This document shows positions 9,141 through 36,838 of a DNA stretch of 44,792 bases, one piece after another. Both the position numbers and the translations under genes were made by a program. The notes under the pieces are model-generated. The model was not told the origin of the DNA, did no database searches, and saw only the letters and a list, made by a program, of their open reading frames with translations. The stretch comes from Acidimicrobiia bacterium (lineage in GTDB: Bacteria; Actinomycetota; Acidimicrobiia; IMCC26256; JAMXLJ01). Numbering within the stretch: the stretch's first letter is position 1; each line of letters opens with the position of its first letter. The stretch covers positions 1 to 44,792 of the forward strand of contig DASRES010000011.1 of assembly GCA_035651955.1 (NCBI GenBank), read 5' to 3'.

Positions 9141-11915
9141 CTACGAGTTGCGCCGGCGGGCGGGCGACGCGCTCGCGACCGCCAGCTCGGTGCGGCTCCG
9201 CGCACCGGTCTTGCGCAGCAGGCTCTCGACGTGCTTCTCGACCGTGCGCGGCGAGACGCGCAGCTCGGCCGCGATCTCCTTGTTCGCGAGCCCTTCGATG
9301 ACGAGACGCAGCACGTCCGCCTCGCGCGCGGTGATGCCGTTGCCGGCCCACGGGTTCGCTCGCGTGCTCGCGAGCAGCTCGCGACAACGCTGGGCCGGCC
9401 ACGGCAGCCCGCGCTCGGCGAAGTGCGCGGCTGCCGCGGTCAGCCAGCGCTCGGGATCGCCCCAGCCGTCGGCGAGCGCCGCTTCGGCGGCGAGCAGGCG
9501 AGCCAGCTCGGCCCAGGCCTCGCAGTTGCGGAACGCTCGATCGGCGTCGGCGACCAGCTCGTCGGCTCGGCGCCCTTGCCCGGCCCGCCCCGCGAGGATC
9601 GCCTCCGCGTACGCGATGAGCCCGCGGTTCAGGTGGAACGCGGCGACACCGAGCCGGCGCGCCTCGTCGATCGCGGGCTGGGCACGCCGATCGCCGACCG
9701 ACGCCAGCAGCACCGGCCACAGCGCGCGGATCGCGGCGGGCTCGGCGTGGGGGAGACGTGCGAGGACGCCCATGCCCCGCCCGAACAGCGCGAGCGCCTC
9801 CTCCGTGTCACCGCGGAGCAGCGCGACCGTGCCCCGGGCTCCGGAGCCGAACCCTTCGAGCATCCGGTCCTCCGGCGCAGCGCTCGTCATCAACGTGACG
9901 TAGCGCTCGGTCTCCGCGACGTCGGCGCGCATGCTCGCGCTGCCCGCGAGCATCGCGAGCGCCTTCGAACGGACGATGTCCAACGCGAGCCGCTCGGCGA
10001 TCGCGATCGCGGCGCGCGCGTGGTCGTCGCACGCGTCGAGATCCCACCGGCAGGTGAACGCGGCGGCGAGCTGGAGGTCGAGGACGGCGGCGGTGCTGAG
10101 CGCACCCATCTGCTCGGCGGCGCGCCGCGCGTCCGAGAGACGCGCGATGCCGGCGTGGTCGAAGAGGTCGATCGTGCCGAGCTCGTGGAGCGCGCGCAGC
10201 CGCCAGACGGGCAGGTTCGCGGCCTCCGCGGTCGCGAGCGCGCGCTCGAACGCGTCACGCGCGGCGACGAGATCGTCGAACCGGTGGCTGCGCCCGACGA
10301 TCTCGAGCGCGTGGCACCGGACGTCCGCACTCACGTCGCGCGCGCCGAGAGCGTCCTCGGCGAGCCGTCGCGCGGCGTCGAGGTCGTCCGCGGCGAACGC
10401 GATCTCGGCCTCGAGGACGTCGATGCGCGGCCGCACCGCGGGCGCAGGCCGGTCCCGGCACAGCGCGCGAGCCGCGTCGAGCTGGTTGCGCGCGGTCGGC
10501 CAGCGCGATGCGGCGACCGCGGCCTGCGCGAGACGGAGGTACACCTCGACGCGCGTCGGCTCGGTCTCCGGATCGTCACGCAGACGCGCGATGAGCTGGC
10601 CGCCCGCCGCGGACGCCTCGTCGGCCCGTCCCGCGAGCGCGAGCGCCTCCACGAGCAGCACCTCGCTCCGCGTCGCCTGGGTCTCGCGCTGCAGCTCGAC
10701 CGCACGCCGCAGCGCGTCGATCGCGGTGGCGAGCGCACCCCAGTCGAGCGCCTCGCGCCCCGTCTCTGCGAGCAGCGCGCCTGCCCGCGGCCGGTCGCCG
10801 GCCCGCTCGGCGAGGTCCGCGGCGACCTCGCGCCAGGAGCCGTCGAGCGCGGGATGGGCCGTGTCGACGGCGGCCAACGCGGCCGCCGCGACCGCGCGGT
10901 GGGCCGGTGGGAGCATCCCGTCCAGCACGGCCTCACGGGTCAGCGCGTGCCGGAAGCGGTACGACAGCCCGTCGGAGGTCAGGAGCAAGCGGTCGTGTGC
11001 GCGCGCGAGCGCGTCGCACACCGTGTCGACGGACGCGCCCGTCACTGCGGGCAGCAGCTCCCAGTCGAAGTCGCGACCCAGCACCGCTGCCGCCTCCACG
11101 ACCGCGCGCGCGTCGGGCGTGAGGTCGGCCAGGCGCTCGCGCACCGTCTCCGCGAACGACTGTGGCAGACCGGGCGACGCGAGCAGCTCCTCGACGAGGA
11201 GGGGAACGCCCTCGGCCGTGCGCTGCACGTGCGTGATCACCTCGTGCGGCGCATCGGGGACGCACGCGGCCGCCATCGCGGCCATCGCCTGGGCGTCGAG
11301 GCGCTCCAACGCGAGATGCACGACGCCAGCGCGGCCGCGCAGGCGTCGGAGGAGCTCGAGCGCGGGTGACTCCGGCGCGTCGCGCAAGGTCATCGCGCAC
11401 AGCACCCGTTCCGAGGTGAGGTTGTCGGCGAGGTACTCCAGCACCGCGACCGTGTCGCGGTCGGCCCAGTGCAGGTCCTCCAGCACGACGACGAGCCCGT
11501 CGGGCGCGACCCGTCGCAGGAGCTGGACGAGCGCTTCGCCCCGGATCGCGGGTGACGTCGCGGTCGCGGTCTCCGTCTCCGCGACACCGGGCAGCAGCGC
11601 GCCGAGCGCGCCACGCCACGGCGCGAAGCGCTCGTCGTCGGGCAGGTCGCGGTCGCGCAGCAGCTGCAGCAGCGCCTCGGTCAGCGGCCGGTACGGCACG
11701 CTCGTGGACGACGGCACCGCGCGACCGCACACCGTCGGGACGCCGTGCGCGGCGGCCCGCGCCGTCAGCTCGCGCACGAGACGCGACTTGCCGATCCCCG
11801 GCTCACCGCTGAGGACGACACACCCGCCCCGGCCGTCGAGCGCGCCGGTCAGCGACGCGTCGAGCCGTGACAGCTCGGCGTCCCGGCCGACGAGCGTCGG
11901 GCACAGCACCTGCAC
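9141..11915 (-). CDS. LuxR-family regulator with N-terminal ATPase (LAL type)
   Basis: About 924 residues. The N-terminal STAND-like ATPase has Walker A GEPGIGKS (about residues 37-44) and a Walker B region with VVVLEDLHWADRD. A long helical, TPR-like middle region follows. The C-terminal LuxR HTH lies in the last 65 residues, with ITAREADVLRLVIEGLANKE then SPRTVEKHVESLLRK. Such proteins are large ATP-dependent activators; the inducer is unknown. GTG 11915 gives PTLVGRDAEL near the N-terminus, as usual; TTG 11945 is a weaker choice. Its stop is 117 bp before the NTF2-like/cupin pair on the same strand, which it may control. Confidence 0.88.
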   Translation of the reverse strand: MQVLCPTLVGRDAELSRLDASLTGALDGRGGCVVLSGEPGIGKSRLVRELTARAAAHGVPTVCGRAVPSSTSVPYRPLTEALLQLLRDRDLPDDERFAPWRGALGALLPGVAETETATATSPAIRGEALVQLLRRVAPDGLVVVLEDLHWADRDTVAVLEYLADNLTSERVLCAMTLRDAPESPALELLRRLRGRAGVVHLALERLDAQAMAAMAAACVPDAPHEVITHVQRTAEGVPLLVEELLASPGLPQSFAETVRERLADLTPDARAVVEAAAVLGRDFDWELLPAVTGASVDTVCDALARAHDRLLLTSDGLSYRFRHALTREAVLDGMLPPAHRAVAAAALAAVDTAHPALDGSWREVAADLAERAGDRPRAGALLAETGREALDWGALATAIDALRRAVELQRETQATRSEVLLVEALALAGRADEASAAGGQLIARLRDDPETEPTRVEVYLRLAQAAVAASRWPTARNQLDAARALCRDRPAPAVRPRIDVLEAEIAFAADDLDAARRLAEDALGARDVSADVRCHALEIVGRSHRFDDLVAARDAFERALATAEAANLPVWRLRALHELGTIDLFDHAGIARLSDARRAAEQMGALSTAAVLDLQLAAAFTCRWDLDACDDHARAAIAIAERLALDIVRSKALAMLAGSASMRADVAETERYVTLMTSAAPEDRMLEGFGSGARGTVALLRGDTEEALALFGRGMGVLARLPHAEPAAIRALWPVLLASVGDRRAQPAIDEARRLGVAAFHLNRGLIAYAEAILAGRAGQGRRADELVADADRAFRNCEAWAELARLLAAEAALADGWGDPERWLTAAAAHFAERGLPWPAQRCRELLASTRANPWAGNGITAREADVLRLVIEGLANKEIAAELRVSPRTVEKHVESLLRKTGARSRTELAVASASPARRRNS

Positions 11916-11987
11916 CGGGACAGTCTGCCGCCTGCCGGACGGCAACCGACACGGTCACGACACCGCTGCGACACTGCTCCGACGCTG

Positions 11988-13229
11988 CTACGTCGCTACG
12001 GGACCCGCGACCACCGGCAACGACGTCAGGCCGCGCAGCACGAGCCCGTCGCCGTGCCCCCAGTGGAGCCGCTCGACGGGCACCGCGAGTCGCAGGTCGG
12101 GGAAGCGCCGGAACAGCTCGCCCAAGGCGATCTCGCCCTCCATCCGGGCGAGCGGCGCGCCGAGGCAGAAGTGGATCCCGTGGCCGAAGCCGAGGTGTCG
12201 ACCGTTCGAACGTGTGATGTCGAAGTCGTCGGGCCGCGCGTAGTGCGACGGGTCGCGGTTGGCGGACGCCAGGTTGACGACGATCTGCGCGCCGGCGGGG
12301 ATCACGACGCCACCGAGCTCGATGTCCTCACGCGCGTACCGGAACGTCGCGTGCGGTACGGGCGCGTCGTACCGGATCACCTCCTCGACCACGTTCGCGA
12401 CCAGTGACGGATCGCGGCGGAGTCGAGCGAGCTGGTCCGGATGCGTCAACAGCGCGACGACCGCGTTGCCGATCAGGCTGGCCGTCGTGTCGTGGCCGGC
12501 GACGATCAGCTGGAAGATCGTCGACAGGAGCTCCTGCTCGCTCAACCGGTCCTCACCGTCGCGCGCGCCGATCAACGCGCTCACGAGCGCGTCGTCCGGC
12601 TCTCGTCGCTTGCGCGCGACGAGCTCGACCAGGGTGGCGACGACGTCGTCGGAAGCGAGCTTCGCGGCCGCGAGCTCCTCGGGTGTGCGCGTCGGCACGA
12701 GCATGTCGCGCAGCGAGCGGCCGAACGGTGCGCGCCACGCTTCCGGCACGCCGAGCAGCGCGCAGATCACGGTGAACGGCAGCGGGAACGCGAACGACGG
12801 CACGAGGTCGACGACCGCGTCGGGACCGCGGGCGACGATCGCGTCGAGCATCGTCCCGACGATCGCTTCGACATCGGCGCGGAGCGCTTCGACCCGTCGC
12901 ATCGAGAAGGCACCCGCGACGAGGCGGCGGAGGCGGGTGTGGTCCGGGGGATCGACGGCGAGCATGTGGCGCGCGAACGCGGGCCCCGGCAGGCCTTCCG
13001 CGACGACGCCGCCCGACGACGCGAGGGCCGCGTGCATGTCCTTCGAGATGCGCGGGTCGTTCAGGGCGGCCTTTGCCTCCGCGTACCGGACGACCAGCCA
13101 GGCGTCGTGACCGTCGGCGAGCGTCACCTCGTGCACCGGCGCGCGCCGGCGTACCTCGTCGAACAACGGGAAGGGGTCGTCCGGATCGAAGTCGCCCCAC
13201 GCCGCCAGCGCCCGGTCGATGGTCTCCAC
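11988..13229 (-). CDS. Cytochrome P450
   Basis: A 413-residue bacterial class I-type P450. All hallmarks are present: I-helix AGHDTT (244-249), the K-helix ExxR in EEVIR (E283, R286), RYAREDIELGGVVIPAG, and the haem loop FGHGIHFCLGAPLAR with the thiolate C355. It is soluble, with no membrane anchor. No ferredoxin or ferredoxin reductase lies next to it, so electrons must come from elsewhere. The GTG start at 13229 yields the normal N-terminus. A palindromic box (13263-13280) stands 33 bp upstream, matched by an identical arrangement before the NTF2-like gene at 14969. Substrate unknown. Confidence 0.93.
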   Translation of the reverse strand: METIDRALAAWGDFDPDDPFPLFDEVRRRAPVHEVTLADGHDAWLVVRYAEAKAALNDPRISKDMHAALASSGGVVAEGLPGPAFARHMLAVDPPDHTRLRRLVAGAFSMRRVEALRADVEAIVGTMLDAIVARGPDAVVDLVPSFAFPLPFTVICALLGVPEAWRAPFGRSLRDMLVPTRTPEELAAAKLASDDVVATLVELVARKRREPDDALVSALIGARDGEDRLSEQELLSTIFQLIVAGHDTTASLIGNAVVALLTHPDQLARLRRDPSLVANVVEEVIRYDAPVPHATFRYAREDIELGGVVIPAGAQIVVNLASANRDPSHYARPDDFDITRSNGRHLGFGHGIHFCLGAPLARMEGEIALGELFRRFPDLRLAVPVERLHWGHGDGLVLRGLTSLPVVAGPVAT

Positions 13230-13262
13230 GGTGCGGTTCTACGCCGCCGGCGCGCGGAGCGA

Positions 13263-13280
13263 ATCGGGTGATTGCCCGAT
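13263..13280 (-). promoter_or_regulatory. Palindromic box before P450 gene
   Basis: ATCGGG-TGATTG-CCCGAT has perfect 6-bp arms around a 6-bp spacer. On the minus strand it is preceded by GAAAG and ends exactly 33 bp before the P450 start codon. The same GAAAG-box, in the same orientation and at the same distance, precedes the gene at 14969. It is likely an operator or activator site; the HD-GYP/LuxR gene lying between the two boxes is the first candidate to bind it. Confidence 0.65.
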
Positions 13281-13298
13281 CTTTCTGGCCGCGCGTCG

Positions 13299-14855
13299 TC
13301 AGCCCGCGGTGCCGCTGGTGAAGCCGTGCTGCATCGCGAACAGCGCGGCTTCGGTGCGGGTCGAGATGCCGAGCTTGGCGTAGATGTGCTCGAGGTGCGA
13401 GGACACCGTCTTGCGCGAGATCGACAGCTCCTTGGCGATCTCCGGGTTCGACCGGCCGCGCGCGAGGCAGACGAGCACGTCCGCCTCACGCGGCGTGATA
13501 CCGCCCGGAAGCTCGGCCCGGCGGCGCACGCGCTCACCGCTCGCGCGCAGCACCGCGTTCACGACCTCGCCGTCGAGACGGGCGGCCCGCACCTCGTCGC
13601 GCATGATCTCCGCGACGCGCGTGGGATCGACGGCGTCGCGGTGCGGGCGGGGCTGCCCGAGCGCGTTGTGCACGTCGGCAGCCGCGAGGATCCGGGCCGG
13701 CAGCGGCAGCGCGTCGCCGCGCAGACCGTGCGGATAGCCCGACCCGTCGAGCCGCTCGTGGTGCAGCGACGCGCAGCGCGCGACGTCGGCCAGCAACGGT
13801 GTGCGCGCCAGCATGCGCTCCAGCAGGTAGGGATGTGTCCGCGCGCGTTCGCGCCGGCTCAACGACCACGGGCCCGGCTCGTCCCACACGCCGCTCGGGA
13901 CACCGATCATCCCGACGTCGTGCACGAGCGCGGCACGGCGGATCATCTGCACGTCGCCCGCACCCAGCCCCAGCGCGGTCGCTGCCGTCGCGGCCGTCGC
14001 GGCGACACCGCGTGAGTGACCCGCCCGGCACGGTGACTTCAGGTCGGCGAAGTCCGCGAGCGCTTCGAGCGCGGCGTCGAGCTGCTCGTCGCTCAGCTCG
14101 GCACCGAGACGGGGGTCGAGCGCGATCACCTCGTCCCACGCCGAGACCTCGTCGATGCCGGCGAGCACGTCAGCAGCGTGCCCGCAGAACACGTCGACGA
14201 GCTCGGGATCGAAGTGCGTGCCCCGCCGTCGACGGGCGACGTCGACGGCCGCCTCGCGTCCCGCGGTGAAGTGGTACGCCTCGACCGCGTCCGCGAGCTG
14301 GACGATGCGCGCGGCCAACGCGAGGTCGTCCCTCCCGACCGCGCCCGGAACACCGCGCCCGTCCCATCGTTCGAACGCCTGCACGAGCGGCCGCTGCACC
14401 TGGTCGCCGAGGCCGAGACGCTGCGCGAGCTCGCCGGTCGACTGGCAGTGCGAGAGCATCACCTGCCGTACCGAGCGACCGCCGCTCGCGACGAACCGGC
14501 TCGCCATGCTGAAGCGCCGGACCGGTGAGCGGCCCCGGCCGAGATGGCGGAGCATGAAGACGGCCAGCGTCATCCCCGCGAGATCGCCGTCGTGCGTGTC
14601 CGCGAACAGTCCCGTCTCGTCGCCGAACAGCTCCGCGAGATCACTCGTGTCGGCCGCGCAGCCGACCCACGTCAGCAACGACGTGTAGTACGTCGCCGAT
14701 CGAACCTCGTCGCCCGCACCGGCGAGGTCGGCGAGGCGCATCGCGATCACCGTCTGCCGCAGCACGCGCTCGACTGGCCGGCCCATGCCGAGGTCGGACA
14801 CCAACGACAACGTCGCCACGAGCTCCGAGAGCCGCACGGTCGAGGTCGACTGCAT
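13299..14855 (-). CDS. Tandem HD-GYP-like / LuxR HTH regulator
   Basis: A 518-residue protein. The first half (about 1-235) is a degenerate HD-GYP module, with SHCQSTGELAQRLGL, ERWDGRGVPG and ARIVQLADAVEAY but no intact HD pair. A second module (about 280-440) keeps RAALVHDVGMIGVPSGVWDE and HHERLDGSGYPHGL, so it may hydrolyse or sense a nucleotide. The last 65 residues form a LuxR HTH with ITPREADVLVCLARGRSNPE and SRKTVSSHLEHIYAKLG. Coupling a phosphodiesterase-like sensor to a DNA-binding domain suggests nucleotide-responsive transcription control. ATG 14855 was chosen because the upstream extension lacks domain character. Matching palindromes flank the gene on both sides. Confidence 0.87.
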   Translation of the reverse strand: MQSTSTVRLSELVATLSLVSDLGMGRPVERVLRQTVIAMRLADLAGAGDEVRSATYYTSLLTWVGCAADTSDLAELFGDETGLFADTHDGDLAGMTLAVFMLRHLGRGRSPVRRFSMASRFVASGGRSVRQVMLSHCQSTGELAQRLGLGDQVQRPLVQAFERWDGRGVPGAVGRDDLALAARIVQLADAVEAYHFTAGREAAVDVARRRRGTHFDPELVDVFCGHAADVLAGIDEVSAWDEVIALDPRLGAELSDEQLDAALEALADFADLKSPCRAGHSRGVAATAATAATALGLGAGDVQMIRRAALVHDVGMIGVPSGVWDEPGPWSLSRRERARTHPYLLERMLARTPLLADVARCASLHHERLDGSGYPHGLRGDALPLPARILAAADVHNALGQPRPHRDAVDPTRVAEIMRDEVRAARLDGEVVNAVLRASGERVRRRAELPGGITPREADVLVCLARGRSNPEIAKELSISRKTVSSHLEHIYAKLGISTRTEAALFAMQHGFTSGTAG

Positions 14856-14917
14856 CGCACGAATCCTCCCACGTGCCGCGGAGGCAGCGAGCCGCTGTGC
14901 CGTTGCGCGCCCGAAAG

Positions 14918-14935
14918 ATCGGGTGGTTGCCCGAT
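14918..14935 (+). promoter_or_regulatory. Palindromic box before NTF2-like/DsrE genes
   Basis: ATCGGG-TGGTTG-CCCGAT, preceded by GAAAG at 14913-14917, ends exactly 33 bp before the ATG at 14969. It is the counterpart of the box at 13263-13280. It also lies 62 bp upstream of the divergent HD-GYP/LuxR start at 14855, so it could serve autoregulation. Confidence 0.65.
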
Positions 14936-14968
14936 GTGGACGCGCCGGACCCGTCGTACAACGACACC

Positions 14969-15379
14969 ATGACCGAGGTTCAGCCGGCCGCCAACGCGCA
15001 GTTCGGTGTCGCGGGTGTGCTCCTCGACGCGTTCGCCGCGCACGACTTCGACGGGCTCGCGGCCGCGCTCGATCCCGCCGCGACGATGTCCGCGCTGCTG
15101 CCACGCGGTCTCGTCGAGTGGGAGGGCGCGGACGAGATCTGCGGCGCGTTCGGGACGTGGTTCGGCGACGTCGAGGACTTCGAGGTCGTCGACGTCGCGG
15201 TCGGCCAGGTGGGCGCGCTGCTCCAGCTCCGCTGGCGTGTGCGCGTCCGCGGCGGCCGCTTCGGTGACGAGGCGACGATCGCCGAGCAGTGCGCGTACGC
15301 GAGCTGCGGTCCGAGTGCGCGCATCACCCGCGTCAGGTTGCTGTGCTCCGGGTTCTGGCCCGAGCACGGCGCGACCTGA
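14969..15379 (+). CDS. NTF2/SnoaL-like protein
   Basis: A 136-residue protein with the NTF2-like pattern. FGVAGVLLDAFAAHDFDGLA is followed by LDPAATMSALLPRGLVEWEG, ADEICGAFGTWFGDVEDFEV, a strand with GALLQLRWRVRV and a final strand with ARITRVRLLCSGFWP. No catalytic residues can be assigned with confidence. ATG 14969 lies 33 bp after the palindromic box shared with the P450 gene, linking the two genes in one regulatory unit. The DsrE gene follows after 46 bp on the same strand and is probably co-transcribed. Confidence 0.78.
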   Translation: MTEVQPAANAQFGVAGVLLDAFAAHDFDGLAAALDPAATMSALLPRGLVEWEGADEICGAFGTWFGDVEDFEVVDVAVGQVGALLQLRWRVRVRGGRFGDEATIAEQCAYASCGPSARITRVRLLCSGFWPEHGAT

Positions 15380-15425
15380 CCGCCGCGCACCGCACATCCC
15401 CGACCACCCGAGAGGAGCACCAGCC

Positions 15426-15806
15426 GTGACGACCACCGCCGCCCCCGACAGCAAGGTCCTCATCTGCCTGAACCACGGGGCCGAGGAGCCCGAGAACGTG
15501 CTGATCGCCTACCTCGTCGGCGTCGAGGCACTCCGCGCCGGCAAGCAGGCGCTGATGTTCCTCACCAAGGACGGGATCCACGCCGCGACGCCGGGGTTCG
15601 CCGAGAAGATCGAGGTGCCCGGTGCGCCGTCGGCCAGCGCGCTGAACGACGAGTACCTCGAGAGGGGCGGCCGGTTCTTCGCCTGCCCCGTGTGCGTGAA
15701 GACGCGCGACATGCAGAACGCCGAGTGGCTGCCGAACGCCGAGGTCGCCGGCATGCCATCGGTGTACGAGTACACGCAGGGCGGTGCACTCGTCTTCAAC
15801 TACTGA
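15426..15806 (+). CDS. DsrE-family protein
   Basis: A 126-residue DsrE/DsrF-like protein. It has KVLICLNHGAEEPENVLIAY at the N-terminus, then VEALRAGKQALMFLTKDGIH and a conserved pair of cysteines in FFACPVCVKTRDM. It ends with a segment containing EYTQGGALVFNY. The family includes sulfur-relay subunits and peroxiredoxin-like proteins of unknown role; the CxxC invites a redox or sulfur-carrier function. GTG 15426 has GAGAGGAG upstream. It follows the NTF2-like gene in what looks like a two-gene unit. Confidence 0.85.
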   Translation: MTTTAAPDSKVLICLNHGAEEPENVLIAYLVGVEALRAGKQALMFLTKDGIHAATPGFAEKIEVPGAPSASALNDEYLERGGRFFACPVCVKTRDMQNAEWLPNAEVAGMPSVYEYTQGGALVFNY

Positions 15807-33970: not shown

Positions 33971-36838
33971 TCACGCCATCCCGAGGCGTTGCGCGACGGC
34001 CGCCGCCTCCACACGGCTCGTCGCCCCGAGCTTGCGCAGGATGTTCGAGACGTGGACGCTCACCGTCTTCTCGGAGACGAACAGCTCGGCACCGATCTGG
34101 CGGTTCGTGCGGCCGGCGGCGACGAGCGCGAGGACCTCGGCTTCCCGCGACGTCAGCCCCAGGCGCGACGCGTCGCTTGCGCCGAGAGCGGTGACGGGCT
34201 CCTGCTCCACACGCAGGCGCGTGCGCGTCGCGACTGCGTCGATGTCGGCGAGCAACGGCGTCGCCTGGAGCTCTACGGCGGTGTGGTGCGCCGCGCGCAG
34301 AGCGTCGCTCGCGCGCGCCGCCTCACCGACCGCGGCGGCGGCCTCGGCCTCGCGCACACGGGCAACCGCCGCACCCCAACGATCGGCGTGCTCGTCCCAC
34401 GCGGCCGCCGCGCGCGCCCACGCTTCCGGATCGCCGGTCGTCAGCCGCGTGATGCTCGCTTCGGCGTGCGCGAGGAACGGCGCGACACCCACGGGCAGCT
34501 CGCCCGTGTCCGGACGCGTGCACGCCGTGCGTGCGTCCGCGACGCGTTGCGCGAGGCACGCCACGACGGCGTCGACGTCTACGGGCTCCCGCCGCGCGAG
34601 CGCGTCGAGTGCCTGTTCGACCTCGGCCGCGACGGCGAGCAGTGCGAAGCGGGCCGGCCAGCGGTGGTCCCGTCCGCATTCGCTCGTCCAGCCGTCGCCG
34701 GCCGCGCTCGCCGCGACCGCCGGCTCGCCGCACAGCAACGCGACGTCCGCGCGTCCCGCGCTCAGGTGGATCACGTGCCACGGGTCGACCTGCAACTGCT
34801 CGGCACGCGCGATCTCGGCCCGGGCGCGTTCGCGCTCGCCGCGACGCGCCGCGAGCGCGGCCGCCGCGACACGGAGACGCAGCGCCGTCGGCGGGACGGC
34901 GTCGACTCCTGCGAGCCGTTCGAGCAGTGCTCTCGCCTCCGACCAGCGGCCGAGGCGGGTCAGGCCCTCGACCGCCATCGCCGACAGGTAGCCGCCCATG
35001 CTGCGATCGAAGCCGGCCCGCTGTCCCTCCGCGGCACCGTCGAGCGCGACGGCGACGGCGGCATCGAACCGCGCGGCGTGCAGGAGGGACTCGGCGAGGT
35101 AGATCGTGGCGAGTGCCCGGTCGTCCGGGAGCTCGGCTGCTGCAGCAGCGCGTTCGCAGAGCGCGATCGCGGCGTCCGTGTCGCCGAGGTGGCTGTGTAC
35201 GAGACCGAGCACGCGAGTCGCGTGCACCCACGTCGCCCGGTCGACGTCCGGATCGGTCACGACGGCGAGCGCCTGCTCGCACCATGTCTGCGCAGCCGCG
35301 TAGCGGCAGAACAGGAACTCGCCCTGCGCGAGCCCGGCGCACACGATCGCGGTGTCGACGGTGCGGTCGTCCGGGTCGACCAGCGCAGCCGCAAGCCGGT
35401 ACTCGACCTCGCTCTCCGCGAGCCGCCCCGCGGTCCACAAGTAGCGTGCCAACCTTTCGTGGCCCCACGCCTCACCGCGCGAGGGCGCACGGCGCGCGAG
35501 CGCCTCGGTCGCGAACGTCACTGCACGGGCACCGTCGCCGGTCACGTACGCCAGCTCGGCCGCCTGCCACTCGCGCGGGGCGCGCTCGTCGTCGGGCGCG
35601 CCGGCCTGGTCCCACAGCGCGAGCGCGCGCTCGACCTGCGCGAGCGCCGCTGCGGGCGCGACGCACTGAAGCTCGTCGCTCGCACGCAACATCGCGTGGA
35701 ACGCCCCTGTGACGTCGCCGGCGCGCTCGAGGTGAAATGCGAGCTCGCCCGCGGCCATCGTCGGCGTCGCCGCGAGCTCCGGCCTCGTCACCAGCGTGTC
35801 CGCGATCCGGCCGTGCAGTCGCCGTCGCTCGGACGGCAGCAGCTGCGACGCGACGACGTCGCCGATCAGCGCGTGACGAAACGCGAATCCGTCGGCACGC
35901 TCGTCGAGCACGATGACGTCCGCGGCGAGCGCCGCGTGCAGCGCTGCGTCGAGCGCGGCGTCGTCGACGTCGACAACCGCGCGCAGCAGCGCGTCCGGCG
36001 TCTCACGCCCGAGCGTCGCGAGCGCCGCGAGGACGGCCTTTGCGTCGTGGTCGAGGTGGCCGATGTCGGCGGCGAAGAGATCCGACAGCAGTTGCGGTAT
36101 CGACTCGCCTGCGGCGCTGGCCGCCGCCAGCTCCTCGGTGAACAGGGGATTTCCGTCACCACGCGCCATGATCTCGTCGACGACCTCGGGCGGCACGGCA
36201 TCACCGACGACCGCGGCAGTCAGTCGCGCGACGTCCGCGCGCGCCAGGCGTCCGGGTTGGATGCGACGGACGAGCGGCAACCGGCTCAGCTCCGCGAGGC
36301 GCCGGCGATCCTCGACGTCACGCACGGTCGACCCCGCGCGGTACGTCCCGACGACGACGACTCCTTCGTCGACGAGGTACCGCGCCAGGAAGTCGAACAG
36401 GTCCCAGGTCAAGGGATCGGCCCACTGTAGGTCCTCGAACAGGACCACTCGCGTGCCGACGGCCGCGAGACGCGCGAGGAGCGTGAGGGTCGCGTCGAAC
36501 ACGGCCAGCGGTGACGACTCCGGCCCCGTGACCGCGGCGCGCCGGCTGACGAGCTGCGCGAGCGCTTCCGCGTCCGGTGAGTCGAGCAGCTCCGGGTGCG
36601 CGCGTCGCACCGCGCGCAGGATGTCGACGAGCGACGCGAACGGGATCGTCTCGGCGCTGCCTCGCGACGAGCGCCCGACGACGAGCTCGACACCGGCGGC
36701 CGCGGCGGCGTGCGCGACGAGCGTCGACTTGCCGATCCCCGCCTCTCCGAGCACGAGGACGACCGCGGCACCGCCCGCAGCGGCGGTCGCGATCGCGCCC
36801 TCGAACTGCGTCAGCTCGCGTTCGCGCCCCACGAACAC
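33971..36838 (-). CDS. LuxR-family regulator with N-terminal ATPase (second LAL)
   Basis: A 955-residue relative of the 9141-11915 protein. [15 protein letters not shown] is followed by Walker A GEAGIGKS (31-38) and a Walker B region [21 protein letters not shown] long TPR-like helical section occupies the middle. The C-terminal LuxR HTH (about 885-950) has [20 protein letters not shown] and [20 protein letters not shown] 36838 begins directly at the conserved FVGRE. The gene is 15 bp after the AraC gene on the same strand, so the two regulators are likely co-transcribed. It ends upstream of the metal cluster. Confidence 0.88.

Follow-up and report, generated by a model that had tools for sequence, protein, structure and literature searches.

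Of the described systems that we compared with our locus, the closest working model is PdeL (YahA) of Escherichia coli, a LuxR-EAL 'trigger phosphodiesterase' that, like the regulator analysed here, fuses a LuxR-type DNA-binding domain to a cyclic-dinucleotide phosphodiesterase domain. PdeL recognises an imperfect palindrome and is a transcriptional activator (PMC5052742). A 2016 review of the trigger concept sees HD-GYP proteins as candidates that might act likewise and names none (PMC5052742). By comparison of architectures, our regulator seems to fit a trigger phosphodiesterase in which EAL has been replaced by HD-GYP. The two differ in that PdeL carries its DNA-binding domain at the N-terminus and has its own gene as known target, whereas the regulator here combines an HD-[HD-GYP] half with a C-terminal DNA-binding domain.

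For the sensor half, the nearest relative of known structure and activity is V-cGAP3 of Vibrio cholerae (PDB 5z7c), an HD-[HD-GYP] phosphodiesterase for 3'3'-cGAMP that aligns across residues 8-438 (E 5.5e-61), including the degenerate N-terminal HD and both conserved cysteines. V-cGAP3 has the HDxGK lysine and, in the aligned chain, no DNA-binding domain, while the regulator family shows the opposite on both counts. DvhD of Desulfovibrio vulgaris (PDB 9rbz), the second best sequence match and top row of the fold comparison for our regulator, uses the HD-GYP fold to perceive c-di-GMP and not for catalysis; unlike the regulator, it is a receptor that includes a periplasmic domain, acts together with the protease DvhG and is no transcription factor (PMC13090378). 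In Streptomyces lunaelactis, SLUN_31535 has an HD-GYP followed by a LuxR-type DNA-binding domain and is described, with no target or site given, as unique in its genus and as missing key GYP residues (PMC6205966), in contrast to our regulator family, which keeps both G373 and Y374 (59/59 relatives).

As for the DNA site, PAS-LuxR regulators (PimM type) recognise CTVGGGAWWTCCCBAG, that is GGG-N4-CCC, in the -35 region of their targets (PMC9774167). They resemble our putative activator in being of LuxR type and in having a GGG/CCC palindrome at the -35 region of targets, yet they differ in sensor (PAS versus HD-[HD-GYP]) and in spacing (GGG-N4-CCC versus GGG-N6-CCC), and Pfam finds no PAS domain in the regulator, which thus falls outside the PimM type. 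Some PAS-LuxR target promoters belong to P450 genes. In the literature searched, neither the regulator-operator pair described below nor the GGG-N6-CCC box, the pairing of box and regulator or the targets had been described.

Boxes and promoters around the regulator gene

The window, by which we mean the whole stretch of 44,792 nucleotides that was analysed, contains the following features at the locus.

11988 to 13229, minus strand: cytochrome P450 gene, 413 aa, behind box 1 (Pfam; a P450 with 48% identity lies in a box-led operon of relative G020)
13236 to 13241, minus strand: -10-like element TAGAAC, 6 nt ahead of the P450 start codon (read from the sequence; a TA at this spacing recurs after relatives' boxes)
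13263 to 13280, minus strand: box 1, ATCGGG-CAATCA-CCCGAT, read toward the P450 gene (exact match of ATCGGG-N6-CCCGAT; recurs beside relatives of the regulator)
13281 to 13285, minus strand: GAAAG leader of box 1 (the same five bases precede box 2 and the boxes of L038, L039 and L042)
13299 to 14855, minus strand: regulator gene, 518 aa, with degenerate N-terminal HD, HD-GYP (HD_5, residues 265-431) and LuxR/GerE (residues 454-507) domains (Pfam; PDB match to V-cGAP3; fold comparison)
14913 to 14917, plus strand: GAAAG leader of box 2 (identical to that of box 1)
14918 to 14935, plus strand: box 2, ATCGGG-TGGTTG-CCCGAT, read toward the NTF2-like gene (exact match of the same pattern; recurs beside relatives of the regulator)
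14957 to 14962, plus strand: -10-like element TACAAC, 6 nt ahead of the NTF2-like start codon (read from the sequence; a TA at this spacing recurs after relatives' boxes)
14969 to 15379, plus strand: SnoaL/NTF2-like gene, 136 aa, first behind box 2 (Pfam SnoaL_2; commonest box-side neighbour in close relatives)
15426 to 15806, plus strand: DsrE-family gene, 126 aa, second behind box 2 (Pfam DsrE; gene order shared with G152 and G243)

Read each toward its own gene, the two boxes share all 12 arm bases and the 5-bp leader and differ in their spacers; box 1 ends 33 bp before the P450 GTG at 13229 (-) and box 2 ends 33 bp before the NTF2-like ATG at 14969 (+). This arrangement, claimed in the original prediction, proved exact when checked on the sequence, and the genome scan that it had proposed returned precisely two exact copies of ATCGGG-N6-CCCGAT in the entire 4.1-Mb genome, both flanking the HD-GYP/LuxR gene. 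Chance at 71% GC would give ~0.45 exact copies per 4.1-Mb genome and ~0.0002 per 1.7 kb, and the reversed control pattern had no match in the whole genome. When the GAAAG leader was included, the genome scan found nothing elsewhere better than three mismatches, such leader-bearing near matches being scattered singles. As far as exact boxes go, a wider regulon was rejected, since the 4.1 Mb hold no more than these two.

Both promoters in the window follow one layout: the box, 21 bp, TAGAAC or TACAAC, 6 bp and the start codon. Sequence inspection reveals no ribosome site upstream of the P450 and NTF2-like starts, whereas the second gene, DsrE, has AGGAG at normal distance (15413-15417) and the regulator has GGAGG (14865-14869, minus strand). 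With a -10-like element 6 nt before the start and no ribosome site, the P450 and NTF2-like promoters therefore show the layout of leaderless promoters, in which the transcript would begin at the start codon. Relative to that codon the centre of each box falls at exactly -42.5, where LuxR-type class II activators classically have their site. The end of the box extends into the -35 position, which lacks a TTGACA-like sequence.

Elsewhere in the window, a large ATP-binding LuxR-type regulator with a GerE domain (9141-11945; Pfam) is the next gene after the P450 gene and shares its strand, and a second such regulator with a GerE match lies at 33971-36838. Two adjacent minus-strand reading frames (760-1943; gene call) resemble, by eye, an insertion-sequence transposase pair.

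Domains and conserved residues of the regulator

The protein encoded between the boxes had been described as a tandem HD-GYP sensor with a LuxR DNA-binding domain. The latter is clearly present as a C-terminal GerE helix-turn-helix (PF00196, 62 bits, above the Pfam cut-off), and in the fold comparison this half resembles LiaR, DosR and NarL. Also upheld is the tandem arrangement, with two HD_5 stretches in Pfam, but not a tandem of two HD-GYP domains: the N-terminal copy is degenerate and the metal-binding motif is kept in the C-terminal copy only.

In the C-terminal copy, the window protein has H280, H312, D313, H341, H365, H366 and D394 together with GSGYP, and most of the 59 aligned relatives keep H280, H312-D313, H341, H365-H366, E367, GxGY and D394. 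The lysine of HDxGK, however, is replaced by M316 in the window protein and by Arg (44/59) or Met (8/59) in relatives, with no Lys among the residues listed. Since the metal ligands are mostly kept while this lysine is replaced, ligand binding by the HD-GYP half is plausible and catalysis is doubtful and may be lost; for the latter reason we do not claim an active phosphodiesterase. The host probably makes c-di-GMP, given 21 GGDEF matches in its genome, and these matches together with the homology to V-cGAP3 make it plausible to call the regulator 'nucleotide-responsive'.

Two Cys residues of the degenerate N-terminal HD copy are kept among relatives (C66 in 59/59, C137 in 56/59), both also found in the V-cGAP3 alignment. 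C66 sits where active HD-GYP domains carry the HDxGK lysine, and judging from conservation a redox or metal site is possible. As the predicted structure is of middling quality (mean pLDDT 66.7, residues 64-109 poor), we read no C66-C137 distance from it.

Recurrence of the box beside relatives of the regulator

Sixty loci were tested, namely the window and 59 relatives of the regulator drawn from relatives of the genome, its class, its phylum and named genomes (five Amycolatopsis, whose loci are mutually non-independent, and one Nocardioides; regulator identity 66-68%). Flanks of most loci were 1.5 kb, so that boxes farther out would be missed. In an early subset, five relatives had the exact ATCGGG-N6-CCCGAT close to the regulator and others a near form. 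Scored as ATSGGG-N6-CCCSAT with at most one mismatch, the box occurs in 41/60 loci (shuffled expectation 5.8), as against 2/29 control loci, which are mostly other LuxR or HD genes. Placed 33-35 bp before a start codon it occurs in 29/60 loci, where shuffling predicts 0.2 and the controls have none (0/29). Distances from the box to a frame-opening ATG peak at 33, 34 and 35 bp (10, 9 and 9 cases) and no other distance has more than four.

The promoter layout recurs with the box. Across 28 boxes the TA of the -10 element lies 21 or 22 bp past the box in 20, the -10 hexamer is 6-7 nt from the start, a Shine-Dalgarno-like motif precedes the start in only three and no TTGACA-like -35 was seen. One locus (L061) has an exact box with TAGCGT at the usual distance before a SnoaL-like gene whose start codon is farther off; because the -10 spacing is kept there, this suggests that the constrained distance is the one from box to -10.

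Recurring partner genes are SnoaL/NTF2-like, DsrE, P450 and SCO4226-like. In G020 the regulator is followed directly by a box, an NTF2-like gene and a P450 gene; in G152 it is box, NTF2-like, DsrE (74% identical), SCO4226-like and regulator; in G243 it is regulator, box, NTF2-like and DsrE; and in Amycolatopsis and Nocardioides it is regulator, box and NTF2-like, to which one of these loci adds an SCO4226-like gene. As these relatives hold the partner genes together behind a box, the window looks like a rearranged form, with P450 and the NTF2-DsrE pair on opposite sides and a box for each. A tree places the window protein together with those of G020, Nocardioides and Amycolatopsis. The small SCO4226-like gene (nickel-responsive family, PF14026) recurs beside the regulator at L047 (1188-1469), L056 (3173-3454) and L040 (7977-8255) and has no counterpart in the window.

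The local regulon that had been proposed (boxes, regulator, P450, NTF2-like and DsrE) is well supported by the uniqueness of the boxes in the genome and by their recurrence with shared genes. Loss of the box from loci sharing the gene order had been set beforehand as an outcome that counts against it, and most close relatives speak in its favour: the box is present in G020, G152, G243, Amycolatopsis and Nocardioides, while two fairly close relatives (L010, L011) have no recognisable box. About half of the relatives, one large clade among them, have no recognisable box at the 33-35 bp spacing, and a general scan of box-less loci for GGG/CCC palindromes gave no convincing substitute except at L058 (GTGGGG-N6-CCCAAT). 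Scanning relatives for the box with TA spacing yielded mostly scattered matches that are likely due to chance, and by eye there was no clear co-variation between box letter 3 (C or G) and one recognition-helix residue.

In distant clades the box precedes an EamA-like transporter gene (by eye), a small protein plus a flavin monooxygenase-like gene, an NnrU-family gene or a class III cyclase gene. Five loci of one family with 5-6 Mb genomes (L114, L116, L118, L119, L121; f78) carry the form WTGGGG-N6-CCCCAT, and the gene behind it encodes a class III nucleotide cyclase, a 250-aa protein or a member of the NnrU family.

Proposed mode of control

Because the box recurs beside relatives in many genomes and at a fixed promoter distance, the two palindromes are very probably binding sites of the adjoining regulator, in which a cyclic-nucleotide-type domain is fused to a DNA-binding domain. 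We further consider it probable that the boxes allow the regulator to activate the adjacent genes, and that a ligand of its HD-GYP half controls this activation. A dimer of the C-terminal LuxR-type helix-turn-helix would bind ATCGGG-N6-CCCGAT, and since the box is centred at -42.5 in a promoter of leaderless layout, over a poor -35 region, the bound protein would most likely recruit RNA polymerase in a class II mode of activation, as LuxR does at luxI. Thus bound, it would turn on genes to both sides, namely P450 and the SnoaL/NTF2-like–DsrE pair, and through box 2 it may feed back on the divergent promoter of its own gene. Its V-cGAP3-related HD-[HD-GYP] half would be expected to bind a cyclic dinucleotide, and perhaps to hydrolyse it slowly; this ligand in turn would alter dimerisation or DNA binding.

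Taken alone, the position of the box also fits repression, with the regulator blocking the -35 region until its ligand releases it: the end of the expected -35 region lies within the box, and local self-contained regulators are often repressors. To our minds this scenario is unlikely, given that poor -35 sequences are what activator-dependent promoters are expected to have and that -42.5 is the established place for a LuxR-type activator. Binding by some other LuxR-type protein seems more improbable still. The obvious candidate, the large ATP-binding regulator at 9141-11945, does have a GerE domain and adjoins the P450 gene on a shared strand, yet across many families the box tracks the HD-GYP/LuxR gene while the other neighbours differ, and the control loci, most of which hold other LuxR or HD genes, have no box at 33-35 bp (0/29).

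ATCGGG-N6-CCCGAT is also able to fold as a hairpin, and box 1 lies closely behind the stop codon of the regulator, as might be seen with a transcription terminator or RNA hairpin. But neither box is followed by a T-run, box 2 follows no gene at all, there are only two copies in the genome, and in two relatives (L049, L059) the EamA gene behind the box does not lie downstream of the regulator. The conserved distance runs to the downstream -10 and start codon rather than to an upstream stop. The absent T-run and this conserved distance led us to reject the terminator or hairpin reading, to which we attach next to no weight.

With activation by the adjoining regulator as the preferred reading, a little-studied kind of sensor-regulator is now paired, in many genomes, with a probable DNA site and target genes. 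The box and its spacing rule let anyone predict targets of the HD-GYP/LuxR family by computer, and a short DNA and one protein suffice to test ligand, binding and direction of control. More tentatively, and with somewhat less than even confidence, the widespread HD-[HD-GYP]-LuxR family might consist of one-component activators gated by cyclic dinucleotides and be the HD-GYP counterpart of PdeL, with each member controlling one to three neighbouring promoters via a GGG-N6-CCC box in a fixed place; the two near-invariant cysteines of the degenerate N-terminal HD may provide a further input, redox or metal, suited to oxidative targets (P450, flavin monooxygenase, DsrE). The locus thereby bears on whether HD-GYP proteins may act directly as transcription factors of the 'trigger' type, like the EAL-type PdeL (PMC5052742).
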